Source: Bacteroidota bacterium (GTDB lineage Bacteria; Bacteroidota; Bacteroidia; Flavobacteriales_F; PHOS-HE28). From it: DNA of 64,000 bases. Shown piece after piece: positions 14,041 to 26,610 of the stretch (within the stretch, counting starts at the first letter, position 1; each line of letters begins with the position of its first letter). A program made the translations under genes and the position numbers. The DNA lies in the NCBI GenBank assembly GCA_014584605.1, contig JACTMO010000080.1, positions 1-64,000 on the forward strand, read 5' to 3'. The notes beneath the pieces are model-generated. The model searched no databases, was not told the DNA's origin, and saw nothing but the letters and a program-made list of their open reading frames with translations.

Positions 14041-16143
14041 TTAACGCACCTCCCCGCCCGGCGGCACGGCGTCCTTCGGTTGCACGAAGACCGGTTTTCC
14101 GTTCGCATCCTCGGCCATGAGCACCATGCCCTGGCTCTCGACCCCGCGCATCTTGCGGGGTTCCAGGTTGGCCACCAGCACCACCTGCTGGCCGGGCAAT
14201 TGCTCCGGTGCGTAGTGCAGGGCGATGCCGCTGACCACGGTACGGGGTGCGCCTTCGCCCAGGTCGATGCTCAGCTTCAGCAACTTGTCGGCCTTGGGCA
14301 CGCGCTCGGCCGCCACGATGGTGCCCACGCGCAGGTCGAGCTTCGCGAAGTCATCGAACGCGATGTGGGGCTTTGAACGTGCAACAGGCGTCCCGCCTGT
14401 TGACGGTGCTGGCCCAACAGGCGGGACGCCTGTTGCACCCTCGTTCGCGTGCAGCCGGTCGATCTCCGGCTGGATCTCCGCATCGGTGATCGGCTTGAAG
14501 AGGTGCTCCGGCTTGCCGAGCTCCTGGCCTGCGCCGATCAGGTCGCTGCGGAAGGCCTCGTTCCACGGCAGCGCCCCGATGGCCAGCATGCGGCGCAGCT
14601 TCGCCGCCGTGTGCGGCAGGAAGGGCTCCAGCACGATGCTGAGCACGGCGGCCACGTTGAGGCTGTTGGCCAGGATGCTGCGTGTGCGCCCGGGGTCGGT
14701 CTTCTCGAGCTTCCAGGGCTCGCTGTCGCTGAGGTACTTGTTGCCGGCGCGGGCCACGTTCATGGCACTGCCCAGCGCGTCGCGCAGGCGGAAGCCGTCG
14801 ATGTGACGGGCGACCTCCTCCACGCTCCCATGGACCGCGCCCCAGAGCGCGATGTCCTGATCGAGCTGCTCACCGGCCGCGGGCGCCTTGCCCTCGTAGT
14901 ACTTGTGGCAGAGCACGAACACCCGCTGCACGAAGTTGCCCACGATGGAGACGAGCTCGTTGTTGTTCTTGTCCTGGAAGTCCTTCCAGGTGAACTCGCT
15001 GTCCTTCTGCTCCGGTATGATGGTGGCCAGGCAATAGCGCAGCTCGTCCTGCCGGCCGGGCCAGCGCTCCAGGTACTCGTGCAGCCACACCGCCCAGTTG
15101 CGGCTGGTGCTGATCTTCCTCCCCTCCAGGTTGAGGAATTCGTTGGCCGGCACGTTCTGCGGAAGCACGTAGCCGCCGTGCAGCTTCAGCAGGATGGGGA
15201 AGATGATGGCGTGGAAGACGATGTTGTCCTTGCCGATGAAGTGGACCAGGCGGGTGTCGTCGGCCTTCCACCACTTCTCCCAGTCGGTGCGGTGTTCCGC
15301 GGCCCAGCGCTTGGTGGCGCTGATGTAGCCGATCGGCGCATCGAGCCACACGTAGAGCACCTTGCCTTCGGCGCCGGGCAGGGGCACGGGCACGCCCCAG
15401 TCCAGGTCGCGCGTCATGGCGCGCGGACGCAGGCCGTCCTTCAACCAGCTGTTGCACTGGCCCAGCACGCTCGCCTTCCACTCCTTCGGGTCGTGGTGCG
15501 GTGCGCCATCGAGGACGCCGGTGTTGATCCAGGCGTCCACCCATTGCTGGGCCTCGTCCATCTTCAGGTACCAGTGCTGTGTGGGCTTCAGCACGGGCTT
15601 GGCCCCGCTGAGGGTGCTGCGCGGATCGATCAGGTCCTTCGGACTGAGCGCACTGCCGCACTTCTCGCACTGATCGCCGTAGGCATCGGGGTTGCTGCAG
15701 GAGGGACAGGTGCCCATGATGTAGCGATCGGCCAGGAACTGCTTCGCCTCCTCGTCGAAGTACTGCTGCTCCTCCTGCACGCTGAAGGCGCCGTTCTCCA
15801 GCAGCTTCAGGAAGAAGCCCTGCGAGGTCTCCCGGTGCAGGTCGCTGCTGGTGCGGTCGTAGATGTCGAAGTGGATGCCGAAGTCGTGGAAGGCCTGCCC
15901 CATCAGCGCGTGGTACCGGTCCACGATGGCGCGGGGCGTGGTCCCTTCCTTCATGGCGCGGATGGTGATGGCCGCCCCGTGCTCATCGCTGCCGCAAACG
16001 AAGAGCACCTCCTTGCCGCGCTGGCGCAGGTTGCGCACGTGGATGTCGGCGGGCAGGTAGGCCCCGGCGATGTGGCCGATGTGCAGCGGCCCGTTGGCGT
16101 ACGGCAGGGCGGCAGTGATGGTATGGCGCTTGATCTCCTTCAC
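14041..16143 (-). CDS. metG: Methionine-tRNA ligase with C-terminal tRNA-binding domain
   Basis: Class I synthetase that charges elongator and initiator tRNA-Met. Features: ITAALPYANGPLHIGH (HIGH motif), FVCGSDEHG, zinc ligands CPSC...CEKC near 145-163, LEGRKISTSRNW (KMSKS-equivalent KISTS), an alpha-helical anticodon domain, and a C-terminal EMAP/Trbp111 domain (FDDFAKLDLRVGTIV). The start is GTG at 16143. Between the anticodon and Trbp111 domains, about 20 residues (ATGVPPVGPAPSTGGTPVAR) are encoded by an inserted palindromic DNA element. Length 700 is otherwise normal. Confidence 0.96.
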   Translation of the reverse strand: MKEIKRHTITAALPYANGPLHIGHIAGAYLPADIHVRNLRQRGKEVLFVCGSDEHGAAITIRAMKEGTTPRAIVDRYHALMGQAFHDFGIHFDIYDRTSSDLHRETSQGFFLKLLENGAFSVQEEQQYFDEEAKQFLADRYIMGTCPSCSNPDAYGDQCEKCGSALSPKDLIDPRSTLSGAKPVLKPTQHWYLKMDEAQQWVDAWINTGVLDGAPHHDPKEWKASVLGQCNSWLKDGLRPRAMTRDLDWGVPVPLPGAEGKVLYVWLDAPIGYISATKRWAAEHRTDWEKWWKADDTRLVHFIGKDNIVFHAIIFPILLKLHGGYVLPQNVPANEFLNLEGRKISTSRNWAVWLHEYLERWPGRQDELRYCLATIIPEQKDSEFTWKDFQDKNNNELVSIVGNFVQRVFVLCHKYYEGKAPAAGEQLDQDIALWGAVHGSVEEVARHIDGFRLRDALGSAMNVARAGNKYLSDSEPWKLEKTDPGRTRSILANSLNVAAVLSIVLEPFLPHTAAKLRRMLAIGALPWNEAFRSDLIGAGQELGKPEHLFKPITDAEIQPEIDRLHANEGATGVPPVGPAPSTGGTPVARSKPHIAFDDFAKLDLRVGTIVAAERVPKADKLLKLSIDLGEGAPRTVVSGIALHYAPEQLPGQQVVLVANLEPRKMRGVESQGMVLMAEDANGKPVFVQPKDAVPPGGEVR
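14379..14438. repeat. Nested palindromic element inside metG
   Basis: A 24-bp perfect inverted repeat (14379-14402 and 14415-14438) separated by 12 bases. Each arm contains its own perfect hairpin: 9-bp stem CAACAGGCG / CGCCTGTTG with loops TCC and GGA. The total of 60 bp is exactly 20 codons, so metG stays in frame. The structure resembles paired REP (BIME) units. It lies precisely in the flexible linker before the tRNA-binding domain. Confidence 0.92.
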
Positions 16144-21787: not shown

Positions 21788-21824
21788 AACGTCGAAGCCG
21801 GGCCAAAGGCCCGGCTTCGACGTT
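21788..21824. terminator. Bidirectional terminator between convergent genes
   Basis: A perfect 17-bp stem (AACGTCGAAGCCGGGCC and its complement) with a 3-base AAA loop, between the converging helicase and desaturase genes. It could serve both. Confidence 0.7.
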
Positions 21825-21839
21825 AGGCCCCGCTCCGGA

Positions 21840-26506: not shown

Positions 26507-26553
26507 GCCGCGCAAAGTTCGCACATCCGCCACGCCGGTCGCGCCCGCTGGCC

Positions 26554-26596
26554 AAAATGAAGAAGGGAGAGGCGGTGCCTCTCCCTTCTTCATTTT
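26554..26596 (-). terminator. Terminator after the OmpA gene
   Basis: Perfect 20-bp stem (from AAAATGAAGAAGGGAGAGGC) with a 3-base loop, ending in A-rich / T-rich flanks on both strands. It ends 14 bases after the OmpA gene stop and just before the DUF983 promoter. Confidence 0.85.
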
Positions 26597-26610
26597 GGTT
26601 GGTACCGGGG

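Follow-up and report, generated by a model that had tools for sequence, protein, structure and literature searches.

The 60-bp element at positions 14379-14438 of the window (the whole 64,000-nucleotide stretch of DNA analysed here, which comes from an uncultured Flavobacteriales bacterium) is, very probably, a GTAG-type inverted REP doublet (REPIN) which was moved by a RAYT transposase into metG, as well as into metH, and tolerated in frame in a linker or loop. In the metG element the arm at 14379-14402 matches the reverse complement of the arm at 14415-14438 at 24 of 24 bases, with a 12-bp spacer (ACGGTGCTGGCC) between them, and each arm is a hairpin in itself, with a 9-bp stem and a loop of TCC or GGA; the nested palindrome given in a preliminary description of this DNA is thus confirmed exactly. 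The bases at the start of the arm, GTGC, correspond to a REP 5′ tag and are not merely additional stem. The features of the locus are as follows.

14041-16143, minus strand: metG, encoding a methionine--tRNA ligase that has a tRNA-binding domain at its C terminus
14379-14402, plus strand: REP unit 1, tag GTGC followed by a hairpin (9-bp stem, loop TCC)
14403-14414, no strand: spacer of the doublet, 12 bp, encoding the mid-peptide GPAPS
14415-14438, minus strand: REP unit 2, unit 1 inverted, with the tags outside (HH dimer, or REPIN)

As in a REPIN, two inverted REPs here form one hairpin, and the RNA of the element folds with -56.5 kcal/mol (z = -9.1). When the window was Markov-shuffled 30 times, no perfect inverted repeat (spacers of up to 60) had arms longer than 13 bp, and the 24-bp palindrome is far beyond chance. 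Besides the element, the window has just two perfect inverted repeats that are long, at 26552-26599 and 21788-21825; they lie at gene ends and have the look of ordinary terminators.

Within the 700 residues of MetG the doublet accounts for residues 569-589, between the Pfam domains Anticodon_3 (421-558) and tRNA_bind (604-696), and the boundaries at 558 and 604 bear out the proposed location in the linker between the anticodon-binding and C-terminal tRNA-binding domains. The description of the element as 60 bp, or 20 codons, in the metG frame holds insofar as it is open in that frame, but the frame begins two bases inside the element, at its third base, and the product is ATGVPPVGPAPSTGGTPVA, with one base left over that opens the following codon. 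Its lack of stop codons in the metG frame, also pointed out earlier, is real but unremarkable on its own because five of the six frames of the element are stop-free. All the metG and metH cases are read in a Gly/Pro/Thr/Val frame (ATGVPPV...TGGTPVA), while the alternative frames yield Cys/Arg-rich or Gln/Leu-rich peptides; these few cases are at most suggestive of a preference for this frame in coding copies. An AlphaFold model of MetG was set aside owing to its mean pLDDT of 42.

A search for other genomic copies found 11 exact ACAGGC-N5-GCCTGT units in this genome (G000), and such units are dispersed over the genus, with 0 to 21 in each of 45 same-genus genomes as against 0-1 for a reversed-pattern control. 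Since allowing one or two mismatches added only 11 sites in G000, compared with seven for the control, the family is small in this genome. Its members can be described by a 5′ tag GT(C/A/G)(G/C) followed by ACAGGC-NTCCN-GCCTGT. Among 59 distinct units oriented by their pyrimidine loop, 51 have G at -5 and 48 have T at -4; the next two bases vary (GTCG, GTCC, GTGC, GTAG), and the 3′ side of these units has no bias comparable to the 5′ GT. This one-sided GT, seen in more than 80% of the 59 units, agrees with the unpaired 5′ GTAG tetranucleotide, degenerate in some cases, at the hairpin foot of GTAG-type REPs, as do the short palindrome, the dispersed copies and the compensatory changes in the stem, where the outermost pair (A-T or C-G) and the loop-closing pair (G-C, T-A or A-T) covary. 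One relative, G033, carries the literal GTAG tag on units arranged in 39-bp tandem arrays; the array at L295 (G033:C3:414000-417300) comprises at least seven copies at 39-bp spacing, most of them GTAG-tagged. CGTC-type REPs and the Rickettsia palindromic elements (RPE), recognised by a CGTC tag at one end, a stem starting with A/T pairs and a CCA-like tail, could be ruled out, the tag here being GTSS, the stem AACAGGC or CACAGGC, and the CCA tail absent.

Across the genus the tagged copies are mostly intergenic or lie in REP clusters, and of the sites whose gene context was assessed, metG and metH alone contain copies in frame. Since, moreover, the metH loop is intradomain, the suggestion of a family that exploits interdomain linkers is not supported, nor is linker specialisation beyond metG and metH. 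Some other genes, such as one resembling a cyclase (EQAGRLF), contain single-unit palindromes that fit the pattern; these belong to conserved native coding sequence and were rejected as insertions. The exact stem is rare elsewhere in Bacteroidota (4 of 395 genomes in a scan of the phylum, G000 included), the closest named records are Flavobacteriales MAGs, and an Rfam search returned only chance sub-threshold hairpin matches.

A REP-associated transposase, sought on the strength of the preliminary description, is present in G000 with family units alongside. One protein of about 206 aa with the motif NHVH scores above the Y1_Tnp (PF01797) cut-off and also matches NCBIfam NF047646 (REP_Tyr_transpos), though below the cut-off; it is divergent, with the Y motif YIHAHEEQ rather than the usual Y...NP. 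TnpAREP class 3, with its Y----Q motif and CnGA foot (PMC6006769), does not accommodate it, as the Q of YIHAHEEQ lies two places later and the foot is GTSS. Family units adjoin the RAYT gene in five genomes (G000:C43, G012:C12, G020:C52, G041:C41 and G043:C11), flanking it on both sides in G020:C52 and likewise in G012:C12, where G012 has no exact units other than the two that bracket the gene. Several other RAYT loci of the genus yielded no family unit, so the link between unit and RAYT is specific to some lineages. The units beside the G000 gene have a CACAGGC stem and GTCG tag as against AACAGGC and GTGC in metG. The closest match to the metG element in both tag and stem (GTGC, AACAGGC) lies beside the RAYT gene of G041:C41, which contains a stop codon. 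Judging from their contig ends, G000 contigs C43 and C65 seem to adjoin each other, with the break falling within a unit; if so, every copy that this genome has outside the RAYT region is in metG or metH. Two other repeats were noted near RAYT genes: an inverted repeat (TGTGGTGGCCCCTAAGTT...AACTTAGGGGCCACCACA; L012 1772-1922, G000:C43) that directly follows the stop codon of the RAYT gene and has no relation to the REP units, and a 22-bp perfect hairpin (GGTGGACACGGAGGACACGGTG...CACCGTGTCCTCCGTGTCCACC; L300 2313-2361, G021:C290) a short way past a relative of the RAYT, which may represent the kind of repeat used in that lineage.

The metG doublet is shared by G000 and G041, and a diverged doublet is present at the same site in G023. 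The linker of the remaining relatives is of another kind, in many cases rich in Pro/Ala, and in near relatives it is of the ANAPxE...PAP type. The expectation of an empty metG site in relatives was therefore met only halfway: the doublet is absent from them, but they carry a native linker of 16-32 residues (23 in G000) rather than a clean gap, so the doublet occupies the place of a Pro/Ala-rich native linker. Of the 60 bases of the element, 2 differ between G000 and G041, compared with about 10% gene-wide, and 13 between G000 and G023. The inner stems of the G023 element are still paired 9/9 through compensatory changes while the outer long pairing is down to 21/24 and folding gives a pair of hairpins, which favours the single REP hairpin, rather than the long RNA hairpin, as the conserved unit. 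In a MetG tree computed with the linker excluded, G023 groups as sister to the doublet-free G009 with a support of 1.00, yet the G023 linker is 62-75% identical to that of G000 as against 33-54% to that of G009, with the neighbouring windows about equally close to either. Repeated insertion, exchange of a short segment between lineages or loss could each explain this pattern.

A second in-frame doublet is found in metH of G000, G011 and G041, where the gene measures 861 bp instead of the 804 bp of most relatives (+57 bp). The filled site reads WPAN-RPTGILPVAESPTGGTPVAPS...-DDI in these three genomes and the empty site WPAN-TIDH-DDI in relatives; Escherichia coli MetH (1MSK) also lacks the segment and shows a gap in the alignment. 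It is thus metH, and not metG, that provides the clean filled/empty comparison, and the copy lies in a loop within a domain. At the same site of G023 metH, in the activation domain, an in-frame array of several REP-like segments makes this stretch 49 residues longer than the empty site:

L205 (G023:C1:578000-583000), about 2415-2560: REP-like segments of G023 metH

A MetH gene tree was dropped for dating on account of weak support, conflict with the MetG tree and two copies in some genomes.

The REP/BIME-like identity first proposed for the element is upheld, as that of a REP doublet, by the tag-hairpin anatomy, the dispersed copies and the RAYT-adjacent units. We infer that the doublet was mobilised by the RAYT, an HUH Y1 transposase that would recognise, in single-stranded DNA, the hairpin together with its 5′ tag and would have moved the doublet into metG and metH. 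Coding copies would then survive where the frame was kept, the position was a linker or loop and the Gly/Pro/Thr/Val frame was read; in metG the native Pro/Ala-rich linker would have been lost, with the REP peptide now serving as the linker, and no extra host function need be assumed. Points that speak against this explanation are the departure of the metG tag GTGC from GTAG/GTGG, the low copy number (11 units in G000), the divergence of the G000 RAYT, whose neighbouring units differ from metG in stem and tag, and the stop codon in the G041 RAYT gene beside which the closest match lies. That the palindrome arose by chance from a repetitive Pro/Gly linker and is not mobile might be suggested by the low-complexity linkers of relatives, but identical tagged units at other places of the genome and next to RAYT genes refute this, and with shuffles never coming near 24 bp we give the idea practically no credence. 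Retention of the long hairpin for a role in RNA, by slowing the ribosome or altering mRNA stability between the two MetG domains, would fit the highly stable fold of the metG mRNA but is very unlikely given that G023 has reduced outer pairing and two separate hairpins in which only the inner stems are perfect, that most relatives are without the element, and that the same element occurs in the different context of metH, as an array in one lineage.

It is also conceivable, though we consider it rather unlikely, that the REP peptide has been selected as the MetG linker and that coding sites act as a refuge from deletion, which would be an addition to the insertion of a RAYT-moved doublet and not an alternative to it. 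The disappearance of the native linker, a length (23) within the range of relatives, the standing of metG and metH as the only G000 copies outside the RAYT region (if C43 and C65 are joined) and the near identity of the G000 and G041 elements in a gene that differs by about 10% are consistent with such co-option; however, the sequences are too few for a test of selection, and a recent common insertion would also account for the similarity. Two lineages that the MetG tree does not place as sisters have doublets at the same metG and metH sites; the stems differ between them, and the metH site of one holds an array. A still more tentative possibility is that coding linkers form a long-term refuge in which REP units stay in frame, pass from one lineage to another and expand, the peptide becoming the linker.

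The in-frame metG doublet is not new in kind because intragenic REP dimers of 20-30 codons were described in 2013 in many genes, including those of tRNA synthetases, with the argument that such dimers are neutral where they fall in linkers and loops (Di Nocera et al. 2013; PMC3733652). What is new is that a Flavobacteriales genus has a small family of GTSS/GTAG type whose host genes are metG and metH. This extends RAYT-linked GTAG-type REPs with in-frame insertions in host genes to that genus, and with metH supplying a clean filled/empty pair and metG showing the element in place of the native linker of a tRNA synthetase, the conversion of mobile DNA into protein linkers is open to direct test. 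The same study described HH dimers and RAYT association and gave GTAG repeats for Proteobacteria, Cyanobacteria, Chloroflexi and PVC, with only CGTC repeats for Bacteroidetes (PMC3733652). The present elements resemble those GTAG REPs in the 5′ tag at the foot of the palindrome, HH dimers, RAYT association and in-frame dimers, but differ in the GTSS tag (GTCG, GTCC, GTGC) of most of this genus, true GTAG being found in G033. They share with REPINs, proposed as mobile units made of an inverted REP doublet and spacer in one hairpin (Bertels and Rainey 2011; PMC3116915), this doublet arrangement, but here the spacing is shorter, the copy number low and the location coding. In-frame insertion is also known for TnpAREP subclass 2.4, abundant in Bacteroidetes and Cyanobacteria, whose canonical long REPs occur in frame inside the transposase gene (PMC6006769), whereas here the hosts are metG and metH and the RAYT is without the YIxNNP motif. 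Likewise, the Rickettsia palindromic elements, which are CGTC REPs, are in-frame palindromes in genes that likely work (PMC3733652), but they have a CGTC tag, another loop and stem, and no known transposase.
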